Assembly: GCA_016873495.1 (NCBI GenBank)
Contig: VGXC01000010.1
Span: 1 to 64,000, forward strand
Source: Nitrospira sp.
GTDB taxonomy: Bacteria > Nitrospirota > Nitrospiria > Nitrospirales > Nitrospiraceae
Reading direction: 5' to 3'
DNA: 64,000 nt
Positions 14,250 to 36,197 of the stretch are shown here, piece by piece. The notes beneath the pieces were generated by a model. It was not told the DNA's origin. It saw nothing but the letters and a program-made list of their open reading frames with translations, and made no database searches. Both the position numbers and the translations under genes were made by a program. Within the stretch, counting starts at the first letter, position 1. Each line of letters starts with the position of its first letter.

Positions 14250-15551
14250 ATGAGTTTGTTGGACAAGATCAAAAATCGCTCGGCCGTGGTCGGCGTGGTG
14301 GGGCTGGGGTATGTCGGGTTGCCCCTGGCAGTGTTGCAGGCCAAGACTGGTTATCGCGTGATCGGAGTGGATGAGGTCGCCGAGAAGGTGACACGAGTTT
14401 CCCGCGGCGACAACTATATCTCGGACGTGGATAGTGCCGAGCTCAAGGAGGCGGTGAAGACCGGGAAGCTTTCGGCTACGAGCGATTTTGCGGCCTTGCA
14501 GGGTTGCGACATCGTCATGATCTGCGTTCCGACCCCGTTGACCAAGAACAAGGAGCCGGACATCAGCGCGGTTGTGTCGGTCACCAAGCAACTGGCCAAG
14601 CACGTGCATTCCGACATGCTCGTGGTGCTGGAGAGCACGACCTATCCGGGGACGACCGAAGAGGTGATGCTTCCGATCCTGACCGGAGGCGGCTTGAAAG
14701 TCGGCCAGGATATCTTTGTCGCCTTCTCGCCCGAGCGCGTGGACCCGGGCAACCGGTCGTTCAAGACGCACAACACCTTCAAGCTGGTCGGAGGGGTGAC
14801 GCCGGCCTGCCTGACCGCCGCACGGACGTTCTACGAACAGTCCATCGTCAAGATTTTCCCCGTCTCCTCTCCTCGGGTGGCCGAGATGACGAAGGTGTTC
14901 GAAAACGTCTTCCGGTCCGTCAATATCGCGCTGGTGAACGAACTCGCCATCCTCTGCGACCGGATGGGCCTCAACGTCTACGAGGTGATCGACGCGGCAG
15001 CCACCAAGAACTTCGGGTTCATGCCCTTTTACCCCGGGCCCGGCGTAGGTGGCCACTGCATTCCCCTGGATCCCTATTATCTCGCCTGGAAATCCAAGGA
15101 ATACGACGTCCATGCCCGGTTCATCGAGCTGGCCGGCGAGATCAACGAGGGGATGCCCTACTACGTGCTGGCCAAGATCCAGCGGCTGCTCAACCAGCAC
15201 GGCCATTGCCTCAATGGATCGGAGGTCTTGATCCTGGGCGTGACCTACAAAGCGGATGTGGCCGATTGGCGTGAAACGCCGGCCATCAAGGTCATGGAAC
15301 TCTTGCAACGGGAGAAGGCGAAACTGGTCTATGCGGACCCCTTCACGCCGTCGGTCGAGATTGAAGGACGGTCGTATGCGGCTGTGGAGGTCACGGATGA
15401 ACAGCTCCGCCGCTGCGCCTGCGCCGTCATCCTGACGGCTCATTCGGCCTTCGACTATGAACGAATCGTTAAGCTCGCCCCGGTGGTCTTCGACACCAGG
15501 AATGGCACGAGGAACGTCAAGGGCAAGAAGAACAACGTGGTGCTGCTCTAA
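14250..15551 (+). CDS. UDP-N-acetylglucosamine 6-dehydrogenase (WbpA-like)
   Basis: A 433-residue nucleotide-sugar dehydrogenase that oxidises C6 of a UDP-HexNAc to the uronic acid with two NAD. The Rossmann motif is GVVGLGYVGLPLAV near residue 14, the central motif is FSPERVDPGN, and the catalytic cysteine is C270 in GVGGHCIPLDPYY. The NAD-side C-terminal domain ends with GVTYKADVADWRETP. GAGGAGG lies just upstream of the ATG. WbpB-like and WbpD-like genes follow directly and a WbpE-like aminotransferase lies at 38790, so the likely product is UDP-GlcNAcA on the way to a 2,3-diacetamido uronic acid. This gene opens the polysaccharide island. Confidence 0.9.
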   Translation: MSLLDKIKNRSAVVGVVGLGYVGLPLAVLQAKTGYRVIGVDEVAEKVTRVSRGDNYISDVDSAELKEAVKTGKLSATSDFAALQGCDIVMICVPTPLTKNKEPDISAVVSVTKQLAKHVHSDMLVVLESTTYPGTTEEVMLPILTGGGLKVGQDIFVAFSPERVDPGNRSFKTHNTFKLVGGVTPACLTAARTFYEQSIVKIFPVSSPRVAEMTKVFENVFRSVNIALVNELAILCDRMGLNVYEVIDAAATKNFGFMPFYPGPGVGGHCIPLDPYYLAWKSKEYDVHARFIELAGEINEGMPYYVLAKIQRLLNQHGHCLNGSEVLILGVTYKADVADWRETPAIKVMELLQREKAKLVYADPFTPSVEIEGRSYAAVEVTDEQLRRCACAVILTAHSAFDYERIVKLAPVVFDTRNGTRNVKGKKNNVVLL

Positions 15552-15580: not shown

Positions 15581-16612
15581 ATGAAGCCAGATCCAAGTAG
15601 AACGGTACGGGTTGCTGTGATCGGCGCCGGAGAATGGGGGAAGAACCATGTCCGGACTTTTGCCCGTCTCAGAGGTGCGACCTTGGCGACGGTCTGCGAC
15701 CTGGACCCAGACAAGCTCGCAGCGGTCCGCACCGAATATCCCGGCGTGACCACGACGTCCCGTTACGCAGACATTCTGCAGGACGCTTCGGTCGAAGCCG
15801 TGATCATCGCCTCCTTCGCTTCCCAGCATTTCGAGCAGGCATGTCTCGCGCTGGAAGCGAAGAAGCACGTGCTGGTCGAGAAGCCCATGACCCTCGGGCC
15901 GGAGGAGGCGGACGAGCTGGTCCGCCTGGCCGATCGGGCCGGCTACTGCCTCATGGTGGGGCACCTGCTGCTGTATCACCCGGCCGTGGCCAAGATGAAG
16001 GCTCTGGTGGACGGTCGGGAGATCGGCGATCTCTTCTATCTCTACAGTCAGCGTCTCAATCTGGGTCGCGTTCGGAAGGATGAAAACGCCCTTTGGAGCT
16101 TCGGGCCGCATGACGTGGCGGTCGCCGTCCATCTCTTCGGGGACGAGCCGGAGACGGTCACGGCCAAGGGAGAAGCGTTCCTTCAGAAGGGGATCGTGGA
16201 CGTGGTCTTCGTGACCTTGCATTTCCCCGAACGGAAGTTGGCCCATATTCACTTGAGCTGGCTGGACCCTCACAAAACCAGGCGGACGACCATTGTGGGG
16301 AGCAAGAAGATGGTGGTGTTCGATGATATGGAACCGACCGACAAGGTCCGCATTTACGACAAGGGAGTGGATATCAAGCCCCAAGCTGTGGCCTACGAAG
16401 ACTACCTCCACGTCCGATTCGGGGACGTGCTGATTCCCCACATCGGCTCGAGCGAACCTCTCCGCGTCGAGTGTCAGCATTTTCTCGATTGTGTCCGGAC
16501 CGGCAATAGACCGATGAGCGACGGCAGGCAGGGCTTACAGGTCATCCGGGTCCTGGCCGCGGCCCAACGGTCGCTCGACCTGGATGGAGCCCCTGTCCCG
16601 GTCAAGGGATAA
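15581..16612 (+). CDS. Gfo/Idh/MocA oxidoreductase (WbpB/WlbA-like)
   Basis: A 343-residue NAD-dependent sugar oxidoreductase. The N-terminal Rossmann fold has [17 protein letters not shown] at the start, and the family motif [14 protein letters not shown] carries the conserved lysine. The C-terminal part has the substrate-binding block [14 protein letters not shown]. In the WbpB/WlbA group this enzyme oxidises C3 of UDP-GlcNAcA to the 3-keto sugar, which an aminotransferase then aminates. The gene sits 29 bases after the WbpA-like gene and 2 bases before the acetyltransferase gene, which is the expected operon order. Confidence 0.87.
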
Positions 16613-16614
16613 CC

Positions 16615-17214
16615 ATGGAACATCAGGCCCTCTTTTGGGCGCATGAGACCGCTTGCGTCGATGATCCGGCCGGGGTCGGGGAGCGGACCAGGGTCTGGCA
16701 TTTCGCCCACATTATGAAGGGGGCGGTCGTCGGCAAGGACTGTTCGATCGGGCAGAACGTGTTCATCGGGGCCGGGGCGGTTGTCGGGGACGGAGTCAAG
16801 ATTCAAAACAATGTCTCGGTCTATGACCGCGTTACGCTGGAGGATCACGTGTTCTGCGGGCCGTCGATGGTCTTCACCAACGTCATCAACCCCCGCAGTC
16901 ACATCTCTCGCAAGCAAGAGTACCGGGCGACTTTGATTCGGCAGGGGGCGACGCTGGGCGCCAACGCAACGATCCTGTGCGGGCTGACCATCGGGCGATT
17001 TGCCTTCATCGGAGCGGGGGCGGTCGTGACCCGCGACGTATCGGACTTCGCGTTGATCACCGGCAATCCAGGTCGGCAACAGGGATGGGTGTGTCGCTGC
17101 GGCGTCAAGCTCTTGTTGCCGGTGCAGGCCGGTCGTCGGCGGGTTGCCTGCCGGGTTTGCAAGGCTACGTACCGAGGTGCTGGGTCGAAATTAATCGAAG
17201 GGGTAGGGGAATAA
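16615..17214 (+). CDS. Hexapeptide-repeat N-acetyltransferase (WbpD-like) with zinc-ribbon tail
   Basis: A 199-residue left-handed beta-helix acyltransferase, with repeats such as [20 protein letters not shown] and [11 protein letters not shown], and the subfamily motif [13 protein letters not shown]. In this subfamily the enzyme acetylates the 3-amino group of UDP-GlcNAc3NA using acetyl-CoA. After the helix, residues 160-182 contain C160-x-C162 and C179-x2-C182 in a basic context, which looks like a zinc ribbon appended to the catalytic domain. The gene starts two bases after the WbpB-like stop. The tail may aid trimer stability or partner binding; its role is unknown. Confidence 0.88.
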
Positions 17215-18177: not shown

Positions 18178-20160
18178 ATGTGCGGGATTGCGGGCCTCTA
18201 CAGTCTGGCCGATCGGGCGATTGAGCCGTTTGAGATCACGCGCATGTGCGAAGCGCAGGTGCATCGGGGGCCTGACGACGCGGGCTGCGTGTTGCTGGCT
18301 CCGCTCGGCCGGTCGAAGGAACATCGCTGGCAGGAGGTGACGGCGCGGGATCGCTCGCGCGCGATACCTGACCTGCAGGATCCGCATGAACTCGTCCAGA
18401 CGGCCGGTTCCTTGGCGCAGGGATCCTACCGCCTGGCGCTCGGTCATCGCCGGCTGTCCATCCTCGACCTGTCCATGGCTGGCCACCAACCGATGGCGAA
18501 TCGGGCCAAGACGGTGTGGCTAACTTACAACGGCGAGATTTACAACTATCTTGACCTCAAAAAGGAACTGGCGGGTAAGGGGCACCGGTTCGTCTCCGGC
18601 TCCGATACGGAAGTGCTCTTGCATCTGTATGAAGAATATGGACCGGCCTGTGTCGAACAATTAAACGGCATGTTTGCGTTCGCGCTCTGGGATGATCGGA
18701 GCGAAACGTTGCTGCTGGCCAGGGACCGTTATGGTATCAAGCCGCTGTATTACGCCGAGATCGGCCACAAGCTGGTGTTTGCCTCAGAAGTGAAGGCCCT
18801 TCTGACCGTGCAGGACTTTCGGCGGGAAGTCAATTTGCCGGCGCTGGCAGACTATTTCACCTTCCAGAACACCTTCGGCGACGCTACGTTATTCAAGGGC
18901 GTTCGGATGCTTGAACCCGGCCATCTGATGACGGTCAAGGCCGGTCACGTCGAGTGCCGGCGCTATTGGGATTTCAATTTTGAGCCGACGGAGGAAGCAA
19001 GCGAGGAGCGCTGCCGGGAGCGCCTCCGGTGCGTGCTCGAGGACACGATCAAGCGACAGTTGATCAGTGATGTTCCTGTCGGAGCCTACTTGAGCGGCGG
19101 CATGGATTCCGGGTCCATCACGGCGATGGCCGCAGCCAGTACCCCGCGGCTCATGACGTTCACGGGGGGATTCGATCTCACGAACGTTTCCGGGTTCGAG
19201 GCCGGGTTCGATGAGCGCCAGGACGCTGAGGTCCTCTCGGCGCTGTTCGGGAGCGAGCATTACCAGATGGTCTTTCATGCCGGCGACCTCGAGTGGGCCC
19301 TGCCGCGGGTCATCTGGGCGATCGAAGATCTTCGGGTGGGGATGTGCTACCCCTACTACTACACCGCGCGGCTGGCCAGCCGCTTCGTCAAGGTGGTGCT
19401 GGGAGGAACCGGCGGAGATGAAATCTTCGCCGGCTATCCTTGGCGGTACCGCATGGCGGAAGGCGCCCGATCGGAACAAGATTTTATGGCTTGCTACTAC
19501 CGGTACTGGAACCGGCTCGTCCCGGCGGACCAGCGGGCGAAATTTTTCTCCCCCCAAGTGTTACGCGAATCCGACGGGCACGATCCGTACGATTCCTTCC
19601 GCCGCCTGGCCGAGCCCGCGCGCTCCATCCGGGATCCGATCCGGCGCGCGCTCTACTTCGAGGCGAAGACGTTTCTGCATGGATTGCTGGTCATCGAGGA
19701 CAAGCTCAGTATGGCCCATTCTCTGGAGTCCCGCGTTCCACTGCTTGACCACGCGCTGGTGGATTTCGTGACGACACTTCCGACGCGGTACCTGATCAAC
19801 CATCAGTGGGATAAAAATCCATCCGGCGACGAGAATCTTGCCGGGAAATATCTGTTCCGGCGCGCCATGGAAGGCATCCTGCCGGACCGGATTCTCCTCA
19901 AGCGCAAACAGGGGTTCAGCGCGCCAGAACAATCGTGGTACCAGGGCCCGCTGATGAACTATGTCAAAACGATTTTGCTCGACCGCAAAACCCTGTCGCG
20001 TGGATTTTTTCAGGAGGCATTTGTGCGGCGGGTGCTGGAGGAACATCTGGGCGGCGCGGTCAATCACCGGCTGCTGATCTGGAGCCTCCTCAGCTTCGAG
20101 TTCTGGAATCGTCTCTTCATGGACGGAGACCCGATTGGAGCGGACGCGCGGGTTTTCTAG
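18178..20160 (+). CDS. Asparagine-synthase-like glutamine amidotransferase, copy 1
   Basis: A 660-residue class II amidotransferase. The N-terminal nucleophile is C2 (MCGIAGLYSL), followed by the glutaminase motifs HRGPDD (30-35) and GHRRLSILDLSMAGHQPM (from 89). The synthetase half has the ATP pyrophosphatase loop LSGGMDSGS near residue 305 and the ESRVPLLDHALVDF block. A segment of roughly 35 residues between HRGPDD and GHRRL is longer than in typical AsnB. Its place inside a polysaccharide island, and a second such gene at 31982, argue for amidation of a sugar uronic acid (as proposed for WbpS of Pseudomonas aeruginosa) rather than plain asparagine synthesis. That is inference. Confidence 0.87.
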   Translation: MCGIAGLYSLADRAIEPFEITRMCEAQVHRGPDDAGCVLLAPLGRSKEHRWQEVTARDRSRAIPDLQDPHELVQTAGSLAQGSYRLALGHRRLSILDLSMAGHQPMANRAKTVWLTYNGEIYNYLDLKKELAGKGHRFVSGSDTEVLLHLYEEYGPACVEQLNGMFAFALWDDRSETLLLARDRYGIKPLYYAEIGHKLVFASEVKALLTVQDFRREVNLPALADYFTFQNTFGDATLFKGVRMLEPGHLMTVKAGHVECRRYWDFNFEPTEEASEERCRERLRCVLEDTIKRQLISDVPVGAYLSGGMDSGSITAMAAASTPRLMTFTGGFDLTNVSGFEAGFDERQDAEVLSALFGSEHYQMVFHAGDLEWALPRVIWAIEDLRVGMCYPYYYTARLASRFVKVVLGGTGGDEIFAGYPWRYRMAEGARSEQDFMACYYRYWNRLVPADQRAKFFSPQVLRESDGHDPYDSFRRLAEPARSIRDPIRRALYFEAKTFLHGLLVIEDKLSMAHSLESRVPLLDHALVDFVTTLPTRYLINHQWDKNPSGDENLAGKYLFRRAMEGILPDRILLKRKQGFSAPEQSWYQGPLMNYVKTILLDRKTLSRGFFQEAFVRRVLEEHLGGAVNHRLLIWSLLSFEFWNRLFMDGDPIGADARVF

Positions 20161-20162
20161 CC

Positions 20163-21071
20163 ATGAGGAAGACGGTGTGCGTGGCATCAATGGCGTCTCT
20201 TCACAATACGAGCGATGCGGAGAACAAGACCGGCGTGACGGAGCTTCGAACCGCAATGGAAGTCAGGCCGAAGCGTTCGTTCTGGAATGTCCTGATCGGG
20301 ATCCCGCCGCACGCGCAGTTGATCAGGCTGCTGGCCGCCGACGAACTCCGGCGCCATTACGTCGGGTCTATGCTGGGAGCCCTCTGGCTCGTGGTGAAAC
20401 CATTGCTGGTGGTCAGCGTCTACATCGTGCTCTTCGGGGTGGTGTTTCGTGCGCGGGTCGGCCCGGCACACGCTCCCATGGAGTATGCGCTGGTGCTGCT
20501 TGCGGGACTGCTTCCGTGGCTGATTTTCGCGGAGTCTCTGACGGCCGCGACGGGTTCTGTAGCGTCTAAGGGCGGTCTGGCGACCAAGGTGCGGTTCCCC
20601 ATTGAAATCCTTCCGATCGCGACCGTGTTGGCGTCCACGCTGTCAGGACTGGTGGGACTGTGTCTGTTCCTGCTGGCCCTGGCTGTCCTGAAACCGTTCG
20701 GGGGGGCTCTGCTGCTGCTGCCGCTGCTGCTCGCGGCGCAACTGCTGTTCACGCTCGGCTTGGCCTGGACGCTCTCGGCGTTCAACGTGGTCGTGCGGGA
20801 TGTCAGCCAGATTCTGCCACTGGCGATGACCGGGTGGCTGTTTTTAAGTCCCGTGGTCTACACGGCGGAAATGGTGCCGGAACCCCTCGCGCGCGCGTTT
20901 GCGTTGAATCCGATGGCGTACTTCCTCGACAGCTATCGGGCGATACTCCTGGCCAATCAACCGCCAACGATCCACCAGTGTGGCGTGATCGGTCTCGTAG
21001 CGGTGGGGACGTTTCTGGCCGGGTGTTGGATCTTTGACCGGCTGCGGGGAACAATCGCGGAGTGTCTCTGA
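20163..21071 (+). CDS. Polysaccharide ABC transporter permease (Wzm-like)
   Basis: A 302-residue ABC-2 type membrane subunit for O-polysaccharide or teichoic-acid-like export. It begins with an amphipathic region ending PHAQLIRLLAADELRRHYVGSMLGALW, the family's conserved cytoplasmic entry segment, followed by six hydrophobic helices and the C-terminal motif LNPMAYFLDSYRAIL. The reading frame is open from 19935 inside the preceding gene, but ATG 20163, three bases after that stop, is the sensible start; internal ATGs at 20190 and 20256 are alternatives. The ATP-binding partner follows at 21114. Confidence 0.87.
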   Translation: MRKTVCVASMASLHNTSDAENKTGVTELRTAMEVRPKRSFWNVLIGIPPHAQLIRLLAADELRRHYVGSMLGALWLVVKPLLVVSVYIVLFGVVFRARVGPAHAPMEYALVLLAGLLPWLIFAESLTAATGSVASKGGLATKVRFPIEILPIATVLASTLSGLVGLCLFLLALAVLKPFGGALLLLPLLLAAQLLFTLGLAWTLSAFNVVVRDVSQILPLAMTGWLFLSPVVYTAEMVPEPLARAFALNPMAYFLDSYRAILLANQPPTIHQCGVIGLVAVGTFLAGCWIFDRLRGTIAECL

Positions 21072-21113: not shown

Positions 21114-22358
21114 ATGAGCGTGACAACGGATCACGGAGTGGCGCTCCGTGTCTTGCATGTGTCGAAAACGTTCAGCGTGTACCCGAGGCCGTCGGACCGG
21201 ATCGTCGAGCTGATAACCCGGCGCGTCCGTCATCGTACGATCCAGGCGCTGTGCGACGTGTCGTTCACGATCAAGCGTGGCGAGGTGATCGGAGTCATCG
21301 GGCGCAACGGCGCCGGGAAAAGCACGCTGTTGAAGATTATCGCCGGTATTATGGACTGCGATCACGGGACCGTCGAAGCGTACGGGAGCTTGGCGTCGAT
21401 CCTGGAGTTAGGCACAGGCTTTTATCCTGATTACAGCGGCCGAGAAAATATCTACATCGGTGGCGCATGCCTGGGCATGACCCTGGACGAGATCGAGCGC
21501 AAGATCGAGTCCATCATTGAGTTCAGCGAGTTGCATGACTTCATTGACCTGCCGATTAAGACCTATTCCAGCGGAATGCAAGCCCGGCTGACGTTCTCCA
21601 CCGCCATCAGCGTTGACCCGGAGATCATGGTGGTGGATGAAGCGCTGGCCACCGGCGATCTCGCCTTTGTGGAGAAATGTATCCGACGGATCGAACGGAT
21701 CATCCAGTCCGGGCGCACCGTGCTGCTGGTCAGCCACAATATGAATTTGATCACACGATTGACTAAACGGGCGATCTGGCTTGATCAGGGCAAGCTCCTG
21801 GCCGACGATGCGTCGGAAACCGTAGCCAAACAGTACGAACTCAGCATGTATCGTCAGGCGAACGACGAGCGGGCCTTCAGCGACGAAGCTCGCCTGGGGG
21901 ATCAGAAGATACGCATTCTGAACGTCAGGATCGAAGGTCAACAGGTGCAGGATCAGGTGTTTCTCCATGGAACCGATTTGATCGTGCACATTGAAATCGA
22001 GGCGTCCATCGAAAGCGAAACGGCCTGTTTCTACCTCGCGGTTCACCGGGCCGACGGCCTCTGTGCCTGGACCGCCACCAATTATCAACACCTGGACGAG
22101 CGGTATCAGCCGATCTCGACGCCGTTCCATATCAAGCCGGGACGGAGCTGCATCAGTTTGCGGATCGCGCAGTGCCCGCTGAATGCAGGCAGCTACGGTC
22201 TTGATGTCGGCATTGAGCCCGTTTCGAACATCGCCACGGTGGGCGACTACCATGATTATTTCCCCAGGTGCCGGAAGTTTTCGATCGTCCGACAGGACAG
22301 CCTCGTCTTGAACAAGATGTGCGATTCACCTTCAACTTGGTCCCTCCGGAGCCGGTAG
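21114..22358 (+). CDS. Polysaccharide ABC transporter ATP-binding protein with cargo domain (Wzt-like)
   Basis: A 414-residue Wzt-type protein. The ATPase half has Walker A GRNGAGKST near residue 63, signature KTYSSGMQARLTFSTA and Walker B IMVVDEALATGD. Residues about 255-395 form a beta-rich domain (VEGQQVQDQVFLHGTDLIVHIEIEA type strands) matching the Wzt C-terminal domain that in E. coli O8/O9a binds the modified non-reducing end of the glycan. That domain implies chain capping before export. The neighbouring methyltransferase genes at 23516, 25593 and 26540 could supply the cap. The next gene begins at the base after the stop. Confidence 0.9.
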   Translation: MSVTTDHGVALRVLHVSKTFSVYPRPSDRIVELITRRVRHRTIQALCDVSFTIKRGEVIGVIGRNGAGKSTLLKIIAGIMDCDHGTVEAYGSLASILELGTGFYPDYSGRENIYIGGACLGMTLDEIERKIESIIEFSELHDFIDLPIKTYSSGMQARLTFSTAISVDPEIMVVDEALATGDLAFVEKCIRRIERIIQSGRTVLLVSHNMNLITRLTKRAIWLDQGKLLADDASETVAKQYELSMYRQANDERAFSDEARLGDQKIRILNVRIEGQQVQDQVFLHGTDLIVHIEIEASIESETACFYLAVHRADGLCAWTATNYQHLDERYQPISTPFHIKPGRSCISLRIAQCPLNAGSYGLDVGIEPVSNIATVGDYHDYFPRCRKFSIVRQDSLVLNKMCDSPSTWSLRSR

Positions 22359-23522
22359 ATGCTGACGACGCAGACGGCACACGCTTCGACCCGCGTTCGA
22401 CTGAGGGATTATCCGTATCCCTATCGGTCGGCGATCGCCATCTCCAACGATTGTGAATTTACGTCATGGGAAACCCAGCTGAGCCTGTATCGCTCTCTGA
22501 GCGGAAAAAACGGGCTGGGACTGGAGATCTCCAATAGTCTCTTCTTTTTCGTGACGAATTCGCTGTGCCACTCCACGTTCAGCTATTTCCAGGGCACCTC
22601 CGATGTTCCGACGGCGTATGCGCCGGTGCTCAGGGAAATGATCCGCGCGGGCTACATCGACACCGTGCATGCCTACGGAGATTTTGATGACGGGACATTT
22701 CAACGGCGCTACGCGGAGCGCATCGCCGACGAGTGCCAGCGGATGGGGCTGGCCCTGGTTGCCTGGTCCAATCATGGATCGGACCGGAACTTTCAGAATC
22801 TGGGCCATCGCCGCTTGACTCAGTACCAGCAAGGAGACAACCCCGATCACCCTTGTTATCACCTGGATCTTTTGAAAGGCATGGGGGTTTGCTACCACTG
22901 GGTGGATGACGGGTACACTCCGAAGCCCGGCGACGAGACGCCGATTCTGTACCACGAGGAGGCGCGGGATGGGAGGGGCTTGATTCTGTTCAGGCGCTAT
23001 CGAGGCCTCGTGGGGCAGTCAGCCCCCACCGCCAGCCGGCTGCCTGAGCAGGTGCTCTTGAGCGACATTGATTCCATCGTGGCAAATGGACGGGCATGCA
23101 TCGTCTATCAGCATTTCGGATGTTGGCAGAAAACTTCGGAGGGAATGTTTGAAGCCAATCAGCCGCCATATTTCTCGCCGGAGGGGATGCGGGTTCTCGA
23201 GCGCCTGGCGGAGATTTCTCGGGAAGGAAAATGTTTGGTCGCCACCGTCGGACGGCTGCTGCGTTATCTGGAGGCCAGAGATGCCGTTGCGTTCACGGTT
23301 TCGAACAACGAGATCATGGTGTCGTCAGCAAGCGTTGGAATCGGCCCGCAGGACCTGGCGGGTGTGACCTTTTACGCGCCTGATCCGGAGCGGATGCGGC
23401 TCACGTGGCGTGCCAAAGACGGGGCCACGCATGCGCTTCCGTCCAGAGTGTTCAGGGAATCGGAGACGGGGCAGCCCTGCATCGGCGTTCCCTGGAAGAA
23501 ACTTGAGGCCTTCCAATGGTAG
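22359..23522 (+). CDS. Polysaccharide-deacetylase-like protein, unassigned
   Basis: A 387-residue protein that I recognise only weakly. It begins its core with AIAISNDCEFTSWE, has HAYGDFDDGTF near residue 107, WSNHGSDRN near 146 and YQHFGCW near 250, and ends the barrel with CLVATVGRLLRYLEARD. Acidic and histidine blocks at these positions resemble the NodB/polysaccharide deacetylase fold, in which Asp and His residues bind a metal. It lacks a signal peptide, so it would act in the cytoplasm. A small beta-rich tail follows (about 310-387). The ATG directly follows the wzt-like stop, and the last seven bases overlap the next gene. Confidence 0.6.
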   Translation: MLTTQTAHASTRVRLRDYPYPYRSAIAISNDCEFTSWETQLSLYRSLSGKNGLGLEISNSLFFFVTNSLCHSTFSYFQGTSDVPTAYAPVLREMIRAGYIDTVHAYGDFDDGTFQRRYAERIADECQRMGLALVAWSNHGSDRNFQNLGHRRLTQYQQGDNPDHPCYHLDLLKGMGVCYHWVDDGYTPKPGDETPILYHEEARDGRGLILFRRYRGLVGQSAPTASRLPEQVLLSDIDSIVANGRACIVYQHFGCWQKTSEGMFEANQPPYFSPEGMRVLERLAEISREGKCLVATVGRLLRYLEARDAVAFTVSNNEIMVSSASVGIGPQDLAGVTFYAPDPERMRLTWRAKDGATHALPSRVFRESETGQPCIGVPWKKLEAFQW

Positions 23523-25501
23523 AGGTTGAACCCCAGGTTGATCTGACGCTGGTGCTGGATATGGCGAAGGAGCATCACGATGAGGGGTACGCCCGGTTCA
23601 TCTGCAAGTTTCCATTTTCGTACTATGTCGAACGGGTGAAGCGTATCGGGTTTGTCGGCAGGCAGTGCGTCATCGATGTGGGATGCGGATTTGGCCAGTG
23701 GACCACGGCGCTGGCCTTGCTGAACCACAAAGTTGTGGCGCTCGAGCAGAACCTGGCCCGTCTCTCGATCGCGCGTGAGTTGGCCAGGCGATCCGGAATT
23801 ACCAATGTGGAGTTTGTGCTTGGGGACGCGCTTTCCGTTCTGGATCGCGAGGACGAAACCTTTGATGCATTGTTTTGCTACGGCGTCTTCATGTTTTTGG
23901 ACCGGCGAAGGGCCGTGGCGGAGTTTGCCAGGATTCTCAAACCGGACGGCGAAATCTACATCTGCACCAACGCGTTCGGCTGGTGGTTGCAACTGTGGCT
24001 GAAGCACTGGTTTAGCGACCGGCAGGTCCGGCAGGCGGCCTATCGTGCAATGACCGGTGGCAACAAAGGCGGTCTCCCGAACTATACGAACAGGGGTGGT
24101 GTCGCTGACGTCTTGCCCCCGGAGGAGTGGGACGTGCTTCAGGTCGGGTACGAGGGGACGCTGTCTCGATTTTCCAACGGCGCCAATCCCGAGCCCGCCT
24201 ACCGAGGGACATTCCTTGGGTTGGATTCGGTGATCGAATTTCTTGCAAGAAAGAAGGCGGCGAATGCGGTGAATTCCGCCCATCATGCGATGCAGAACGA
24301 GCGGTGCCGTGACGAAGCCGCGGCGCTGATCCATCGCCTCGTGGAACGTACACTCGCCAGAAATACCTATGAGTACATCACTCCTCTCCCTGAACTACCC
24401 CAGCCACGGCCGGCCGACGATCTTGTGAATAACTGCTTCCGGCCCCTAGTCCATGAGGCCTTGGCTTTGTCGAGATCTCTGCGCAGGGTCGAGCAACTGC
24501 AACTGGTCTTTCAAAAGATTACGGAGGGCTGCCGGTCTCAGATCGAGCAGATTCGAGCGTGCGTGACGTTCGCCCAAATGCACTTTTTCCATCATTTTGC
24601 CGGCCAACCGATGCAAGCCGAGAACATCCCCGTCCTCGATCCGCTCGCCGCGCTGATTCTGCGGTCCGGCCGATGCGGCAATGTGGCTCGCTTCCTCGTG
24701 GACCTCTTTGAATGCAACGGGTTTCCAGCACGTCTCTTGACGGGCGGCTGCCATACCTCAGCCGAAGTGCTGTGGCAGGCACGCTGGATCCTCGCGGATG
24801 CAAGCCTGTTTCCTCCCGGAGTCTCTCCGGTGGACGATTCCGGCAATCCCGTGGGGATTGAACAGGCGGCGCGGTCTCCCGAGTTGCTGGATCGCTGCCA
24901 GTCCTACATCAACTATCACCACGAGTACGTCGAAGCTTTCCTGAAGGCCTATCCCGAAACCACCTCGGCCCTCGATCGCTATCTTCGAGCGCCGCTGCTT
25001 CCTTCTGCCGCGTTCTTTGGAGCGGAGTATTTTCCTGGAAGGCCCCCCGGCCATATTCAGCGGCTCAGGAAGCAGGGTTCTCCTACGGAATGGAATGCAG
25101 ACGAGAATTTCGGATGGTTCCTCGGCTATCAATGCGACACAATGGAAGGGCCGGCTTCCCTTTCTCGGCAACGGCCTGGGCAAGTCACGAGGTTGGACGC
25201 CAGGCAAGGCGATTTCTGCTGGGAGCGTCCCTATTGTCCGGACAAGGAGATGCGCCTCTTGTACCGCGTGATCATCAATGAACGGTCGCGCGGCTGGAGT
25301 TACAGACAGATTCCAGTGGGCTGCATGTTTGCCGTTTCAGGGACGACCATGATCATCGAAGACACCAGCGTTCCTCAAGAGACACTCCTGAACCTGGGCC
25401 GGTATCTCACGATCGTAACCCAAGTAAGAGAATGGAACGACGAGCAAATCTTTTATCTGCCTTCGAGGGAGTTTGACTTGCGCGACAGGACAAGTTGGTG
25501 A
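23516..25501 (+). CDS. SAM methyltransferase fused to a transglutaminase-like domain
   Basis: A 661-residue two-domain protein. Residues about 30-180 are a class I methyltransferase: motif I is VIDVGCGFGQWTTALAL near 52, followed by VEFVLGDAL and ALFCYGVFMFLDRR. After a linker with helical content (about 280-360), residues about 365-480 show a transglutaminase/papain-like triad: C387 in GRCGNVARFLVDLF, H413 in GCHTSAEVLW and D428 in WILADASLF, with matching secondary-structure pattern. There is no signal peptide. The start ATG overlaps the previous gene by seven bases. Known transglutaminase-like folds include peptidases and amide-forming enzymes, so it may make or break an amide on the glycan or its carrier. 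Confidence 0.75.
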   Translation: MVEVEPQVDLTLVLDMAKEHHDEGYARFICKFPFSYYVERVKRIGFVGRQCVIDVGCGFGQWTTALALLNHKVVALEQNLARLSIARELARRSGITNVEFVLGDALSVLDREDETFDALFCYGVFMFLDRRRAVAEFARILKPDGEIYICTNAFGWWLQLWLKHWFSDRQVRQAAYRAMTGGNKGGLPNYTNRGGVADVLPPEEWDVLQVGYEGTLSRFSNGANPEPAYRGTFLGLDSVIEFLARKKAANAVNSAHHAMQNERCRDEAAALIHRLVERTLARNTYEYITPLPELPQPRPADDLVNNCFRPLVHEALALSRSLRRVEQLQLVFQKITEGCRSQIEQIRACVTFAQMHFFHHFAGQPMQAENIPVLDPLAALILRSGRCGNVARFLVDLFECNGFPARLLTGGCHTSAEVLWQARWILADASLFPPGVSPVDDSGNPVGIEQAARSPELLDRCQSYINYHHEYVEAFLKAYPETTSALDRYLRAPLLPSAAFFGAEYFPGRPPGHIQRLRKQGSPTEWNADENFGWFLGYQCDTMEGPASLSRQRPGQVTRLDARQGDFCWERPYCPDKEMRLLYRVIINERSRGWSYRQIPVGCMFAVSGTTMIIEDTSVPQETLLNLGRYLTIVTQVREWNDEQIFYLPSREFDLRDRTSW

Positions 25502-25592: not shown

Positions 25593-26534
25593 ATGGAATC
25601 GTGGAAGCAGGCGGAAATGGCCTTCGAAAACACGATGGCTGGAAGCTATGACTTCCATTATTACAGCTCGCCCATCTCCCGGGCGCATCTGCGCGAGTTT
25701 TTCATCCTCGTCCAACGGTACGTTGTCCCAGACCAATTCGTGCTGGACATCGGCGGCGGCACCGGCGCTGTCTCGGAGCAGTTGTTAAAGCGGGGACACC
25801 GCCGCATCGTTGCCGTGGATCTATCGCTGGCCATGCTGCGGGAGGCGAAAAAAAAGATGCCCCAGCTGGCCACGATTGTCTGTGACGGAGAGCATCTCCC
25901 GTTCAAAGGCGAGGCGTTCCGGACCATCGTCTGCTCGTCGGTTCTCCATCACCTGCCGTTTCCCGACCGCATGCTCGGCGAGATCAAGCGGGCGCTGGCT
26001 CCCTACGGCGTCGTGGTCGCGCAGGAGCCCAGCCGGGACCATTATTTCAGCACGCCACGATCCGCCCAGGCGAGCGGAATCAGCATGGCCTTGATGCACT
26101 ACCTCTATCGCATCGAGCGCTATGTGCCGGTGAGCGAGCCGTCGATTCATGAATACCATCGGGCCTTTACGAGGCAGGAATTGGTCAAGCTATTCTCGGA
26201 CCAGTTCTTTATTCTCGATTTCTGGTCTCGGTTTGCGTTTTCCTGTCTCTTTTCAAAGCTACGCAGTCCTCGCATGGCCCGTTTGGTCCTGGCCATGGAC
26301 CGGTGCCTGCATCACAATGAGGGTTCGGTCTTTCACATCGTCTGCAGCAAGACAGAAGTGGGGCACCGCAACCTGTTGAAAAACTATTTTCAATATCTCG
26401 ACACCTTGCGAGCCGATCCGGACCAACGACTGTCATGGCTGTTTCTCGCGGGCCTCCTGCCCCTCATTGTGGCGGGCAGGATCTACGAACTGTACGAACG
26501 GGTCCGGTCCAAATCAGGGAAGTCTGTCTTTTAG
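25593..26534 (+). CDS. SAM-dependent methyltransferase with C-terminal hydrophobic anchor
   Basis: A 313-residue protein with a class I methyltransferase domain at about residues 40-150: motif I VLDIGGGTGAVSEQLLKRG near 50, motif II-like IVAVDLSLAMLREAKKKMP, and CSSVLHHLPFPDRMLGEIKRAL. The C-terminal 70 residues end with DQRLSWLFLAGLLPLIVAGRIYELYERV, a likely membrane-associating helix followed by basic residues. The substrate is not visible from sequence. It is the second of three methyltransferase genes after wzt, and a further zinc-ribbon methyltransferase starts five bases after its stop. Confidence 0.82.
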   Translation: MESWKQAEMAFENTMAGSYDFHYYSSPISRAHLREFFILVQRYVVPDQFVLDIGGGTGAVSEQLLKRGHRRIVAVDLSLAMLREAKKKMPQLATIVCDGEHLPFKGEAFRTIVCSSVLHHLPFPDRMLGEIKRALAPYGVVVAQEPSRDHYFSTPRSAQASGISMALMHYLYRIERYVPVSEPSIHEYHRAFTRQELVKLFSDQFFILDFWSRFAFSCLFSKLRSPRMARLVLAMDRCLHHNEGSVFHIVCSKTEVGHRNLLKNYFQYLDTLRADPDQRLSWLFLAGLLPLIVAGRIYELYERVRSKSGKSVF

Positions 26535-26539
26535 CAAAT

Positions 26540-27535
26540 ATGAATCCCCACAGGATAAAAAAACGAGCCATTCTCGCCGGTCTTCTTATCTGTCCACTCT
26601 GCCAGGGGAAGATGCAAGAAAGAGAGGAGTTGTATGAGTGCCTGAGTTGCAACAAGTCATACCCCGTTCAAGGCGGTATTCCCCGGTTCCTGCCCGATTT
26701 ATCGGGCGGGGAGCGGCAGGTCAAAAGCAGCTTCGACCTGGAACACTCGCGCTACCTGGATTCGCACTATTTGCATTTCACGCCCAAGCTGGTCCAGCAG
26801 TGGCTCGAGGAAATCCAGCTGCCGGCGGATTGGTTCAAAGGGAAGCTGGTGCTGGATGCCGGGTGTGGGTCAGGCCGGTGGACCCACGCCATGGCCCAAT
26901 TGGGCGCTACGGTGGTGGCCATCGATCTGACGGATGCCGGCGTCGAGATCACGCATCGTGCGACGGCGCAACTCGAGAATGTGGCGGTCCTGCAAGCCAG
27001 CGTCTTTCATCTTCCGTTCCGTCCCGAGAGTTTCGATCTGGTCGTCAGCTGGGGGGTGCTGCACCATACACCGGACACGAAAGCCGCTTTTGACCGGATT
27101 GCTCCTCTCGTTAAGAGAGGCGGCACTCTCTACGTGATGGTCTATGAGAAGCATAACCCCTGGAAGTTTATGTGGACCGACCTGATTCGGCGCCTCCTGC
27201 GGCTGTTTCCCGAGGAGCAACGGTACCATCTCTGTAAATGGTTCATCATTAAACCGCCGAGACTCCATGCCTTTTTGGCAAATCGGATCATTTGTGCGGG
27301 GTATCCGGTCTCCGCCGATCCTCTTGAACTCTCGACCATTCAGTTGGGGCTCTATGATGCGTATGCGCCCACCTTCAACCATTTGCATACGCGGCAGGAG
27401 GTGTTGACCTGGTTTGAGGAACACAAATTCACTCAAATGATGTTAACCAACCCCGTCCGCTTCACGGAGAAGGAAGACGTGCTTCGTAACGGTGAGTGCG
27501 GCGGCTCCGTCAATATCAGAGGAGTGCGGACGTGA
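26540..27535 (+). CDS. Zinc-ribbon-containing SAM methyltransferase
   Basis: A 331-residue protein. The N-terminus has a Trm112-like zinc ribbon (LLICPLCQGKM ... YECLSCNKSYPVQGGIPRFLP, four cysteines in two CxxC pairs). A class I methyltransferase domain follows with motif I LVLDAGCGSGRWTHAMAQLG and ATVVAIDLTDAGVEI, then VVSWGVLHHTPDT. Such ribbon-MT fusions are common in glycan-modification clusters. The frame is open from 26435, but ATG 26540 gives the normal N-terminus and lies five bases after the previous stop. The stop overlaps the GTG start of the next glycosyltransferase (GTGA at 27532-27535). Confidence 0.86.
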   Translation: MNPHRIKKRAILAGLLICPLCQGKMQEREELYECLSCNKSYPVQGGIPRFLPDLSGGERQVKSSFDLEHSRYLDSHYLHFTPKLVQQWLEEIQLPADWFKGKLVLDAGCGSGRWTHAMAQLGATVVAIDLTDAGVEITHRATAQLENVAVLQASVFHLPFRPESFDLVVSWGVLHHTPDTKAAFDRIAPLVKRGGTLYVMVYEKHNPWKFMWTDLIRRLLRLFPEEQRYHLCKWFIIKPPRLHAFLANRIICAGYPVSADPLELSTIQLGLYDAYAPTFNHLHTRQEVLTWFEEHKFTQMMLTNPVRFTEKEDVLRNGECGGSVNIRGVRT

Positions 27536-30923: not shown

Positions 30924-31982
30924 GTGAAGGTACTGCACTGCCCGACAGAGACGGGGGGCCATGCCTGGGGGCTGTCGCGGGCCGAGCGCGCGCTGGGCGT
31001 GCAGAGCGACGTGATGGTCCGGCACTCGAGCTGGCTGGAGTTCCCGTGCGATGTGGACCTCCGGCTTCGTGACCGGTCCCTGCCGGCCGGCCTGCTCCGG
31101 CTCGGCTGGTTCTTTTCCCACGCGGTCCGCAGGTACGATGTCTTCCATTTCAATTGGGGCATGTCGCTCCTGGATCATCGCGCGTGGCATGTCCACCACT
31201 GGGATTTCCCGCTGCTCAAACGGCTCGGCAAACGAATCATCGTCACGTTTCAGGGCTGCGACGCCCGCATGAAGATACTGAGCCGGGAGCGGTTGAGCAC
31301 CTCAGCCTGCGCTGAATGCGACGTGGCGTGGTGTACGCCAGCGATGGATCAACTCAGGCAGAAACGGATTCAAAAGGTCTGTGCTTATGCCGATCATGTG
31401 TTCGCCGTGAATCCCGACCTTCTGCACTATCTGCCGGGAGCGGAGTTTCTTCCTTATGCCAGCGTAAACCCGCACGAATGGATAGCCGGCGTGGCGTCTG
31501 CTTCGCCGGCGGCCCCTGCGAAACCGTTCCGGGTGTTGCACATGCCCACGAATCGAAGCATCAAAGGGACGAAATACGTGGAACAGGCCTGCACGCAATT
31601 GAGGGCCGCAGGCCTGCCCGTCGACTTGATGCTAGTGGAGGGCGTACCCCATTGGCAGGTAAAGGAGTTAATCGCCCGGGCAGACGTGGTGGTCGACCAG
31701 TTGCTGATCGGCTGGTACGGCGCGCTAGCGGTCGAGGCGATGGCGATGGGGAAGCCGGTGCTCTGCTATCTTCGCGACGACGATCTGAAGCGCTTTGTCT
31801 CCTTCCATGAACGGATTCCCATTGTCGGAACGACGAAGGGGACGCTCGTGCAAGACTTGCGCGCTCTGCTCCAGTCATCGACACGCAGGCAGGTTCTGGG
31901 CCTGGCAGGGCGGCAGTTCGTGCTGGATGTCCATGACCCGATGAAGATTGCGCAACGCACCATCGCAGCCTATCGCGGATAA
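30924..31982 (+). CDS. Glycosyltransferase, GT-B fold, with Cys cluster
   Basis: A 352-residue glycosyltransferase starting at GTG 30924. The N-domain contains DVFHFNWGMSLLDHRAWHVHH and RIIVTFQGCDARMK, and the C-domain contains ARADVVVDQLLIGWYGALAVEAMAMGKPVLCYL, nearly the same as in the gene at 28830. The interdomain cysteines C129-x2-C132-x4-C137 resemble that paralogue's cluster. It lacks the N-terminal membrane helix. The TAA stop overlaps the next ATG by one base at 31982. Confidence 0.83.
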   Translation: MKVLHCPTETGGHAWGLSRAERALGVQSDVMVRHSSWLEFPCDVDLRLRDRSLPAGLLRLGWFFSHAVRRYDVFHFNWGMSLLDHRAWHVHHWDFPLLKRLGKRIIVTFQGCDARMKILSRERLSTSACAECDVAWCTPAMDQLRQKRIQKVCAYADHVFAVNPDLLHYLPGAEFLPYASVNPHEWIAGVASASPAAPAKPFRVLHMPTNRSIKGTKYVEQACTQLRAAGLPVDLMLVEGVPHWQVKELIARADVVVDQLLIGWYGALAVEAMAMGKPVLCYLRDDDLKRFVSFHERIPIVGTTKGTLVQDLRALLQSSTRRQVLGLAGRQFVLDVHDPMKIAQRTIAAYRG

Positions 31983-33934
31983 TGTGTGGCATAGCTGGCA
32001 TTGTGCAGGTGAACGCGCAGCCGGTGGACGCGGCGGTGCTGGAAGCCCTGACCAGTTCGCTCGCCCACCGGGGGCCGGACGGGGAAGGCTACGTCTTGCT
32101 GGCCCGGGGAGGAGCCGGCAAGCCGATCGCGGCGACCGGCCCGCTGTCGGATTCCTTGCGGTCCGTCCCGCGCGAATATTCCGTCGGGTTCGGCCACCGG
32201 CGCCTGGCCATCCTGGACCGCTCACCGCTCGGCCATCAGCCTATGTCCTGCGACCGGGGAGACTTGTGGCTCACCTATAACGGAGAGATCTACAACTATC
32301 TGGAGATCAGGCAGATATTGCAGCAGCGAGGTTGGAGCTTCCGCTCCATGGGCGACGCCGAAGTGCTCCTCTATGCCTACAAAGAATGGGGCGAGGATTG
32401 TCTTCGGCAACTCAACGGCATGTTTGCCTTTGCCCTGTGGGATGCGCGGGAGCAGACGCTGTTCTGTGCGCGCGATCGGTTCGGGATCAAGCCCTTCTAC
32501 TATCGCTGGGACGGGGACCGATTCTGTTTTGCCTCCGAAATCAAGGCCCTGTTGCAGGATCCTTCCCATCGGGTCTTGCCCAATGACCGTCTAGTCTACG
32601 ACTACCTGACTCTTTCGCGGCAAGACCACAGCACGGAGACGTTTTTTCAAGGCATTCACCAACTGGCGCCGGGCGAACGGCTGACGCTGCGGCTTGGCTG
32701 GGGTGGTGGGAAGGACGGATCTGCGCGGATCGACCATGCACGTTGGTGGCGGTTTTCGGAGGGGAAACATGCGGTGTCCCTCGCCGACGCGGCGGTCCGC
32801 ACCAGGGAGCTGCTGGAAGACAGTATCAGGCTGGAGTTGCGGGCCGATGTACCTATCGGAAGCTGCCTCAGTGGGGGACTGGATTCGTCGACCATCGTTT
32901 GTCTGATGAGCCGGCTTCTCGGCGAGAAAACGGCCATCCGGACTTTCTCCTCCTGCCATCAGGACGAACGGTTCGACGAACGGCGCTACATCCGCCCGGT
33001 ACTGGAGCGGACCGGGGCGGCCAATAAACAAGTGTTCTCCGATGCCAAGCAACTGTTTGCGGAGCTTCCGAGGGTGCTGTGGCACCAGGACGAACCCTTC
33101 GCGGGCACCAGCATCTTGGCGCAGTGGGCGGTGATGAACGCGGCTAGGGGAGCCGGCATGAAAGTGCTGCTGGATGGGCAGGGGGCAGACGAACTGCTGT
33201 TCGGCTATCCAGGGTTCATGGGTTCTCACCTGGCCGACCTGGTGACCGCCGGCCACTGGTGGTCTGGTATTCGGGCCGGCCGGGATTGGCGCAGGGTTCA
33301 TGGAGGGTTCCAGCCGACCCTGCTCGCAAGCTTGGGACGAGGGTTGCTCCCGGACGCCATGGCCGCAAGCCTCAGGACCTTTATCCGGGGGGATGACCGG
33401 TGGCTGGCTCCGGCCTTTACCCGGTCCTGGCGATCGAAGAAGGAAGACGGGCTGGTTGTGAAAGGGCGAACCCTGCTGGACAGACACATGGAACGGGCGG
33501 TAACCCAAGACTTGCCCGCCTTGCTTCACTATGAAGACCGGAACGCAATGGCCTTTTCCCTCGAAGCGCGGGTGCCCTTTCTGGATCATCGCTTGGTCGA
33601 ATGGCTGGCCGGTCTGCCGCCGGAGATTAAACTCAACGGAGGTATGACCAAAGTCGTGTTGCGCGAAGCCATGGCCGGCCTGCTGCCGGAGGAGGTCCGC
33701 CTGCGCCGCGATAAGATGGGATTCGTCACGCCGGAAGATCAATGGCTGCGCGTCGATCTACGGGCGGAGATCGAGTCGGTCTTTAGGTCCGACCGGTTCC
33801 ACTCCCGTCCCTATTGGAGGGCTTCGGTCGTGCAGGACTTCTATCGGCGCTATTGCGACGGGCAGGTCTCCATTGGCTCCACCGTTTGGCGTTGGGTCAG
33901 CTTGGAATTGTGGCTCAGGAGGTTTTGTGATTGA
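31982..33934 (+). CDS. Asparagine-synthase-like glutamine amidotransferase, copy 2
   Basis: A 650-residue class II amidotransferase with C2 nucleophile (MCGIAGIVQV), HRGPDGEG at 29-36, GHRRLAILDRSPLGHQPM from 71, the ATP loop LSGGLDSSTIVCLM and ARVPFLDHRLVEWL. The insert between HRGPDG and GHRRL (about 18 extra residues) is shorter than in the copy at 18178. The two copies are clearly different in sequence and flank different parts of the island, so they probably amidate different sugars or act at different steps. It starts one base into the preceding stop codon and its stop overlaps the next GTG. Confidence 0.87.
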   Translation: MCGIAGIVQVNAQPVDAAVLEALTSSLAHRGPDGEGYVLLARGGAGKPIAATGPLSDSLRSVPREYSVGFGHRRLAILDRSPLGHQPMSCDRGDLWLTYNGEIYNYLEIRQILQQRGWSFRSMGDAEVLLYAYKEWGEDCLRQLNGMFAFALWDAREQTLFCARDRFGIKPFYYRWDGDRFCFASEIKALLQDPSHRVLPNDRLVYDYLTLSRQDHSTETFFQGIHQLAPGERLTLRLGWGGGKDGSARIDHARWWRFSEGKHAVSLADAAVRTRELLEDSIRLELRADVPIGSCLSGGLDSSTIVCLMSRLLGEKTAIRTFSSCHQDERFDERRYIRPVLERTGAANKQVFSDAKQLFAELPRVLWHQDEPFAGTSILAQWAVMNAARGAGMKVLLDGQGADELLFGYPGFMGSHLADLVTAGHWWSGIRAGRDWRRVHGGFQPTLLASLGRGLLPDAMAASLRTFIRGDDRWLAPAFTRSWRSKKEDGLVVKGRTLLDRHMERAVTQDLPALLHYEDRNAMAFSLEARVPFLDHRLVEWLAGLPPEIKLNGGMTKVVLREAMAGLLPEEVRLRRDKMGFVTPEDQWLRVDLRAEIESVFRSDRFHSRPYWRASVVQDFYRRYCDGQVSIGSTVWRWVSLELWLRRFCD

Positions 33935-35129: not shown

Positions 35130-36197
35130 ATGTTTCTGCTGATTTTGACCTTCCTCCTGGCCTTTCTTCTGGCTCTCTATGGGGTGCCCCTGGCCCGTCA
35201 GGCGGCGCTCAAGTTCGGCATCGTGGACAGTCCGGACGGGCAGCTCAAGCTTCAGCTCGAACCGGTGCCCTATTTGGGTGGGTTGGCGATCCACCTGGCC
35301 TTCCTGATCAGCCTGGCCTTCACCTTCGAGTTCCGCCACGACGTATTGGGAATCGTCCTGGCCGGAACGTTGATCCTGCTGCTGGGCTTGATCGACGATT
35401 TCGGCGTGCTCTCGCCGGGTGTCAAACTGATCGGGCAGTTCCTGGCCGTCTTCGTGTTGATCAAAAGCGGCATCCGGGTGGAGATCGCCGCATTACCCGA
35501 GTGGATGGACCTGGCTCTGACCGTAATTTGGATGTTGGGCGTCATCAATGCGTTCAATCTTCTGGATATCATGGATGGCCTGGCGGCCGGCGTCGGCTTT
35601 GTCTGTTCGGCCTGTTTGCTTACCGTGGCTCTGTTGAACGGAGACCAGACCCTGGCTTTCATGTTGACGGCCCTGGCCGGGAGCCTGCTGGGCTTCCTGC
35701 GCTACAACTTCCGCCCGGCCTTGATCTATATGGGCGATGCCGGCGCCATGTTCATCGGGTTGATGCTGGGCGCGGTCTCGATGATCGGCCAGTACCAGGG
35801 GGGCCATCCCCTGGCCCTGTTGAGCCCGGCCTTTATCCTGGGCGTCCCGCTCCTCGATACGCTCTTCGTCGTATACATGAGACTGTCGCGCGGCGTGCCG
35901 GTCTTCGTGGGCAGTCCCGATCATCTGGCCCTGCGCCTGAGACGCCACGGGTTTTCGGTGCCGGTGGTCGTGAGTCTTCTGTACGCCGTCTCGGCCCTGC
36001 TGGGCGGCGTCGGGCTGGCGCTCCTGTTCGTCGAAGTGCAACTGGCCTTGGCGCTGGTCGGGCTGACGGGACTGGGGTTCATCGCCACGATCCTTGTCAT
36101 GAAGCGCGTGGACGTGACCGTGCCGGGTCCGGCCGGCGCTACGGGAGCGGCCGTGGCGGTGCCCAGGGATGTCCGGGAAGGGCGGGTGCCGTCATGA
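35130..36197 (+). CDS. Polyprenyl-phosphate sugar-1-phosphate transferase (WecA/MraY-like)
   Basis: A 355-residue membrane enzyme that transfers a HexNAc-1-phosphate from the UDP-sugar to undecaprenyl phosphate, starting glycan assembly at the inner membrane. About ten to eleven hydrophobic segments are present. The catalytic aspartate motifs are LIDDFGVLSPGVKLIGQ, NAFNLLDIMDGLAAGVGF and LIYMGDAGAMFIG. This is likely the initiating transferase of the island. Its last four bases overlap the start of the flavoprotein gene (ATGA at 36194-36197). Confidence 0.9.
   Translation: MFLLILTFLLAFLLALYGVPLARQAALKFGIVDSPDGQLKLQLEPVPYLGGLAIHLAFLISLAFTFEFRHDVLGIVLAGTLILLLGLIDDFGVLSPGVKLIGQFLAVFVLIKSGIRVEIAALPEWMDLALTVIWMLGVINAFNLLDIMDGLAAGVGFVCSACLLTVALLNGDQTLAFMLTALAGSLLGFLRYNFRPALIYMGDAGAMFIGLMLGAVSMIGQYQGGHPLALLSPAFILGVPLLDTLFVVYMRLSRGVPVFVGSPDHLALRLRRHGFSVPVVVSLLYAVSALLGGVGLALLFVEVQLALALVGLTGLGFIATILVMKRVDVTVPGPAGATGAAVAVPRDVREGRVPS

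Follow-up and report, generated by a model that had tools for sequence, protein, structure and literature searches.

A methyltransferase–transglutaminase-like fusion protein beside a Wzm/Wzt-type exporter in Nitrospira

The DNA analysed here is a stretch of 64,000 nucleotides from Nitrospira sp. (assembly GCA_016873495.1, contig VGXC01000010.1, positions 1 to 64,000 of the forward strand), referred to below as the window. It contains a polysaccharide island with an ATP-binding cassette (ABC) exporter of the Wzm/Wzt type, and within this island lies a gene for a protein in which a class I methyltransferase is followed by a transglutaminase-like (TG) core and a fibronectin-III-like (FN3) domain. 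This is a rare but recurrent and uncharacterised combination, and the enzyme probably acts on a surface sugar chain ahead of export, either decorating or capping it. The features of the gene are as follows (G037, G009, G588 and G461 are genomes with relatives of it, described below):

23516..25501, + strand: methyltransferase–TG–FN3 fusion protein of 661 amino acids (aa), a single intact open reading frame (ORF); domain order matched in G037, G009 and G588, and split over two contigs in G461
23603..24055, + strand: class I S-adenosylmethionine (SAM) methyltransferase domain, about residues 30-180; Methyltransf_11, E=7.9e-19, Pfam core 53-149, motif DVGCGFG conserved
24512..24799, + strand: TG core, residues 333-428; PF01841 (Transglut_core)
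24674..24676, + strand: putative nucleophile Cys387, invariant in nine TG domains and aligned with the catalytic Cys of peptide:N-glycanase (PNGase)
24752..24754, + strand: putative catalytic His413, invariant in nine TG domains
24797..24799, + strand: putative catalytic Asp428, kept in all methyltransferase-linked copies and replaced by Glu in the unlinked fragment L033
25160..25498, + strand: FN3-like C-terminal domain, limits approximate, with the signature SRGW(S/T)Y; profile of nine relatives against fibronectin FN3 repeats, E=8e-7

Domains and catalytic residues of the fusion protein

An earlier sequence-only reading of this DNA had recognised a class I methyltransferase followed by a TG-like region with a plausible C387/H413/D428 triad. 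Frame, length and methyltransferase are correct as it gave them: Methyltransf_11 and the glycine-rich SAM motif place the N-terminal domain among the class I SAM methyltransferases. The TG-like region is borne out by the Transglut_core match and by a PNGase profile match in the PDB. In a Pfam scan of the whole protein, Transglut_core scores 22.4 bits (E=1.5e-4), just under the cut-off of 23; it passes with the C-terminal part alone (23.4 bits) and in a genome-wide family search (24.5 bits, at 24512-24799), and the scores are clearer in the relatives from G037 (34.0 bits) and G009 (30.7 bits). On profile score and on its ordered, conserved Cys-His-Asp triad, the domain belongs to the PF01841 superfamily. 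The FN3-like domain beyond the TG core had not been noticed before. Given that neither a signal peptide nor a membrane helix is apparent in the sequence of the protein, the methyltransferase and the TG domain should be cytoplasmic, which is where SAM enzymes are expected.

The numbering of the triad is also correct, and its three residues coincide exactly with the Cys-His-Asp triad of the Pfam family and of PNGases. Profiles of the C-terminal half match peptide:N-glycanase in the PDB with E=0.0038 (built from three sequences) and E=0.00053 (from nine). Only the active-site region is covered, some 55 residues in which Cys, His and Asp line up. The counterparts are Cys191, His218 and Asp235 of yeast Png1 (by index count, assuming a construct offset of seven residues), a triad that crystallography and biochemistry show to be essential and catalytic (PMC2791212). 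Equivalent residues lie at 389/415/430 in G037 and 472/498/513 in G009, and the spacing (26 and 15 residues) is identical in every methyltransferase-linked homologue found. The triad is retained even though the TG copies share no more than about 24-52% identity with the segment in the window, which, on sequence grounds, argues for catalysis.

Distribution of the fusion and of its partner gene

Searches with profiles or proteins detected the fusion in 3 of the 175 genomes from the same family, a count that includes the window genome (besides G037 and G009), and in 2 of 396 genomes sampled across the phylum, which are genomes already seen in the family search. Within one planctomycete order it occurs in G588 and G461 (2 of 197 genomes). 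None of 200 genomes in a Burkholderiales order gave a TG match, and no other genome of the genus (three searched) carries the fusion. The viral contigs searched held no relatives, and the plasmids searched gave matches to the methyltransferase part only. The sequence-only reading knew of no described enzyme of this exact architecture in O-antigen synthesis, and we found no description of a methyltransferase–transglutaminase fusion in glycan synthesis in the open-licence literature searched.

That the fusion is an artefact of assembly or reading frame is hardly conceivable. The planctomycete copy in G461 is indeed split over two contig ends (its N-terminal 293 residues end contig L001 and the matching C-terminal 363 residues begin contig L032), but the gene is unbroken in the window genome, in G037 (628 aa in one ORF, on a single 4.6-Mb contig) and in G009 (720 aa in one ORF). 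The ORF of 604 aa in G588 begins in the middle of the methyltransferase at the contig end and runs without a break to the end of the protein. Because of these independent unbroken copies we reject an artefact. The copies in G009 (L042:10358-12520) and G588 (L040:7683-9497) have an insertion of about 130 residues between the methyltransferase core and the TG domain. Trees of the methyltransferase and of the partner protein introduced below are too poorly resolved to decide whether the TG domain was gained or lost.

Between the gene for the exporter ATPase and the fusion gene lies one further gene:

22359..23522, + strand: uncharacterised barrel-like partner; starts directly after the Wzt stop codon and overlaps the fusion gene by 7 bases

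The sequence-only reading had called this neighbour deacetylase-like, a label for which support was not found. The protein has no Pfam or NCBIfam family and no sequence match in the PDB, and a profile comparison (hhalign) with the NodB-type proteins of its own genome gave nothing significant. Its AlphaFold2 model is of good quality (predicted local distance difference test score, pLDDT, 80.5; predicted template modelling score, pTM, 0.86), but finds as its best, though weak, fold matches GH164, GH57 and other TIM-type barrels, with a template modelling (TM) score of about 0.3. A NodB/CE4 deacetylase is thus not supported. Seven residues are invariant in the family (D31, H104, H139, H168, D170, D183 and H252), and this His/Asp set suggests a barrel enzyme that depends on a metal or on acid-base chemistry.

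Wherever a relative's contig permits the comparison, the partner adjoins or lies near the fusion gene: G037 has it next to the fusion as a gene of its own, and a radical SAM gene stands between the two in G009 and G588. Wzt and partner form one ORF (ABC_tran, Wzt_C, partner domain) on contig L001 of G461 and on L006, a metagenome-assembled genome contig from Burkholderiales where the start of a methyltransferase follows and the contig ends. That partner and Wzt are fused in these two relatives speaks for a function at the stage of export. In the window the partner is in the frame of Wzt and parted from it only by the TAG at 22356-22358; a recent split of the gene, readthrough and a sequencing error are candidate explanations.

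Some further observations concern the partner family, which (including L002, L003 and L015) spans the phylum of the window, planctomycetes, Burkholderiales, Helicobacter and Ekhidna. One member in G588 (L040:3441-6311) is fused to a GT4-type glycosyltransferase in a single ORF of 956 aa. A formyltransferase accompanies the partner–methyltransferase pair in G037 (L041:11305-12321, confirmed by Pfam) and, identified by eye, in Helicobacter (L002:612-1175) and Ekhidna (L003:3956-4738); this hints at a free sugar amine, and none was seen in the window. Radical SAM proteins with SPASM or B12-binding domains lie beside the module at L042:8891-10282, L002:3480-6577 and L040:6188-7696, and not in the window.

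The surrounding polysaccharide island

The remaining genes of the island that bear on the fusion are the following, all recognised by family matches:

14250..15551, + strand: nucleotide-sugar dehydrogenase (WbpA-like); TIGR03026 above cut-off, 81% identical in G009
15581..16612, + strand: GFO/IDH/MocA oxidoreductase (WbpB-like); family matches
16615..17214, + strand: hexapeptide acyltransferase (WbpD-like position); Hexapep, 8.7e-21
18178..20160, + strand: first glutamine-dependent asparagine-synthase-like amidotransferase; Asn_synthase, GATase_7, TIGR01536 above cut-off
19935..21071, + strand: Wzm-type ABC-2 permease; ABC2_membrane, 2e-15; ORF, true start probably later
21114..22358, + strand: Wzt-type ABC ATPase with Wzt_C glycan-binding domain; ABC_tran, Wzt_C; stop TAG 22356-22358 in frame with the partner
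25593..26534, + strand: second class I methyltransferase; Pfam
26435..27535, + strand: third class I methyltransferase; Pfam; true start probably near 26540; 63% identical copy in G009
31982..33934, + strand: second asparagine-synthase-like amidotransferase; family matches
35130..36197, + strand: WecA/MraY-type polyprenyl sugar-phosphate transferase; Glycos_transf_4, 8.5e-32
38790..39908, + strand: DegT-type sugar aminotransferase (WbpE-like); PF01041, 4e-120

The island also contains glycosyltransferases. Pfam confirms the neighbours named before, a Wzt carrying Wzt_C upstream and two methyltransferases downstream, and the setting in an ABC-exporter polysaccharide island is supported. Enzymes for a Wbp-type sugar are present as WbpA-, WbpB- and WbpE-type families plus a hexapeptide transferase, families that do not fix the exact substrates. 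The sequence-only reading had further suggested a coupled modification, for instance one that forms an amide on an amino sugar or a uronic acid. Its basis in the fusion, the triad and the island is supported, while the deacetylase partner was not confirmed. Amide formation would fit the neighbours, given the nucleotide-sugar dehydrogenase, the 3-dehydrogenase-like protein, the aminotransferase, the hexapeptide transferase and the two amidotransferases.

Known systems and possible function

Four known systems invite comparison. WbdD, the kinase–methyltransferase that terminates the O9a chain of Escherichia coli, joins a methyltransferase to a second catalytic domain, and its cap is read by the glycan-binding module of Wzt for export (PMC3482155). 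The fusion protein resembles it in that an N-terminal methyltransferase is joined to another domain with a putative active site, and its gene lies beside a Wzt with the same kind of glycan-binding C-terminal domain as the Wzm/Wzt exporter with which WbdD works (PMC3482155). In WbdD, however, the second domain is a kinase and the C-terminus a coiled coil, whereas here they are TG-like and FN3-like; no kinase family appeared in the Pfam scan of the fusion protein and no WbdD structure among its PDB sequence hits. A terminator role would be an analogy. PNGase/Png1, the closest catalytic match by sequence in the PDB, shares the transglutaminase-type Cys-His-Asp core and amide chemistry at a sugar, but it is a eukaryotic deglycosylation enzyme with a different domain set, and the match is limited to the active-site region.

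The nearest TG-like protein tied to a capsule locus is HvyA, which belongs to another family. It is a bacterial transglutaminase-like cysteine protease that controls the Caulobacter capsule and needs its triad in vivo (PMC4241560), and like the fusion protein it has a TG-like Cys-His-Asp site and is encoded among genes for polysaccharide export. Unlike the fusion protein, which is a Transglut_core member without apparent signal and linked to a methyltransferase, HvyA is periplasmic, carries a signal sequence and belongs to BTLCP. PF01841 was the only peptidase-type family in our Pfam scans of the fusion protein, and a hydrophobic N-terminal signal was not found. The Wbp/Vim pathway of Porphyromonas gingivalis, finally, also combines Wbp-type sugar genes with an AsnB-type amidotransferase: there the uronamide of a sugar from the Wbp pathway is the product of an AsnB-type enzyme, and the linking sugar is an amide-bearing amino-uronic sugar (PMC7468200). 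That pathway differs in using VimE (carbohydrate esterase 4) and VimA (GNAT/FemAB-like) without a TG-like domain, and the partner at the window locus is not recognisable as a CE4 enzyme.

Judging from sequence and gene order, we tentatively propose, at somewhat less than even confidence, that the fusion protein is a cytoplasmic bifunctional enzyme of the Wzm/Wzt pathway that tailors or caps the glycan by methyl transfer and by TG thioester chemistry on a uronamide, thereby licensing export. The N-terminal domain would methylate the chain, either growing or finished, with SAM as methyl donor. Cys387 would be linked as a thioester to the acyl group of a carboxamide or another acyl donor, with help from His413 and Asp428; the likeliest donor would be a uronamide on a Wbp-type diamino-uronic acid, made by the neighbouring amidotransferases of the asparagine-synthase type. 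A probable task of the FN3 domain is to position the chain or partner proteins. Acting with the barrel partner, the enzyme would probably alter the end of the chain and in this way clear it for export, on the model of WbdD in E. coli O9a. The recurrence of the same fusion with the same partner in two phyla counts for such a glycan-tailoring role. A more specific version, in which an ATP-free thioester exchange turns the uronamide into a substituted amide or cross-links it to an amino sugar, thus creating a new type of end cap that marks the chain for Wzt (in some species a Wzt fused to the partner), seems rather unlikely.

Several observations weigh against the proposed role. The single-sequence structure model of residues 300-475 (pLDDT 44.5, pTM 0.27) is of too low confidence to show the fold or the geometry of the triad. 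Scores of the asparagine synthases fall short of the cut-off for eps_aminotran_1, the family in which WbpS is placed (PMC7468200); for 18178-20160 this is the best NCBIfam match (TIGR03108), with 467 bits (cut-off 817). No Wzt is seen on the contig of G588. The partner genes of Helicobacter and Ekhidna are followed by a methyltransferase without TG domain, and an asparagine synthase is present in Helicobacter too, indicating that amidotransferase and TG domain are not strictly coupled.

Two reactions are open to a transglutaminase-type triad: it can pass the acyl group of a carboxamide on to an amine, or it can hydrolyse. The TG-like domain might be a hydrolase (amidase) like PNGase and, instead of making a bond, strip an amide or N-acyl group off the glycan or split a glycosylamide. 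We regard this as the less likely direction, though one to be taken seriously: peptide N-glycanases, which use this triad for the hydrolysis of an amide (PMC2791212), are the sole catalytic relatives found among solved structures, but a similarity of about 55 residues around the active site cannot separate hydrolase from transferase, and the biosynthetic setting with amidotransferases and acyltransferases weakly favours transfer. It is improbable that the domain joins the glycan to a protein or amino acid through an amide, comparable to linking-sugar systems. Wbp/Vim linking sugars do combine Wbp sugars, uronamide formation of the AsnB type and amino-acid amides (PMC7468200), and secreted TG–FN3 proteins occur in the planctomycete genome G461; still, a VimE-like deacetylase could not be confirmed beside the gene, and the fusion enzyme looks cytoplasmic. 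Equally small is the chance that the domain is catalytically dead and serves the methyltransferase as a glycan-binding unit or scaffold. A Transglut_core score at the Pfam cut-off (22.4-24.5 bits against 23) and the relatives of the partner–methyltransferase pair that have no TG domain would suit this explanation, but in a dead domain the loss of the triad would be expected, whereas Cys and His are invariant and triad and spacing are kept in copies of such low identity.

Overall, the fusion itself is now a stronger observation than the sequence-only reading could know, and its functional interpretation is plausible. Amide-linked groups occur on many bacterial O-polysaccharides, and to our knowledge most of the enzymes responsible for their attachment have yet to be identified. 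If the proposed tailoring role is true, a TG-type domain in a cytoplasmic glycan-tailoring enzyme would provide an ATP-independent route to such amides, and the few chain terminators known to be recognised by Wzt would gain a new chemistry. With Wzt, barrel protein and fusion enzyme as a conserved trio, the question is directly testable.

Further TG relatives in planctomycetes have no glycan-island methyltransferase, and most of them have a secretion-like N-terminus. Three proteins of about 1050 aa in G461 (L034:4263-7481, L035:3515-6646 and L035:6960-10133) combine an N-terminal LE-x-RxLLA motif with a C-terminal TG–FN3 pair; two of them are in tandem, and most of their length is without a Pfam family.

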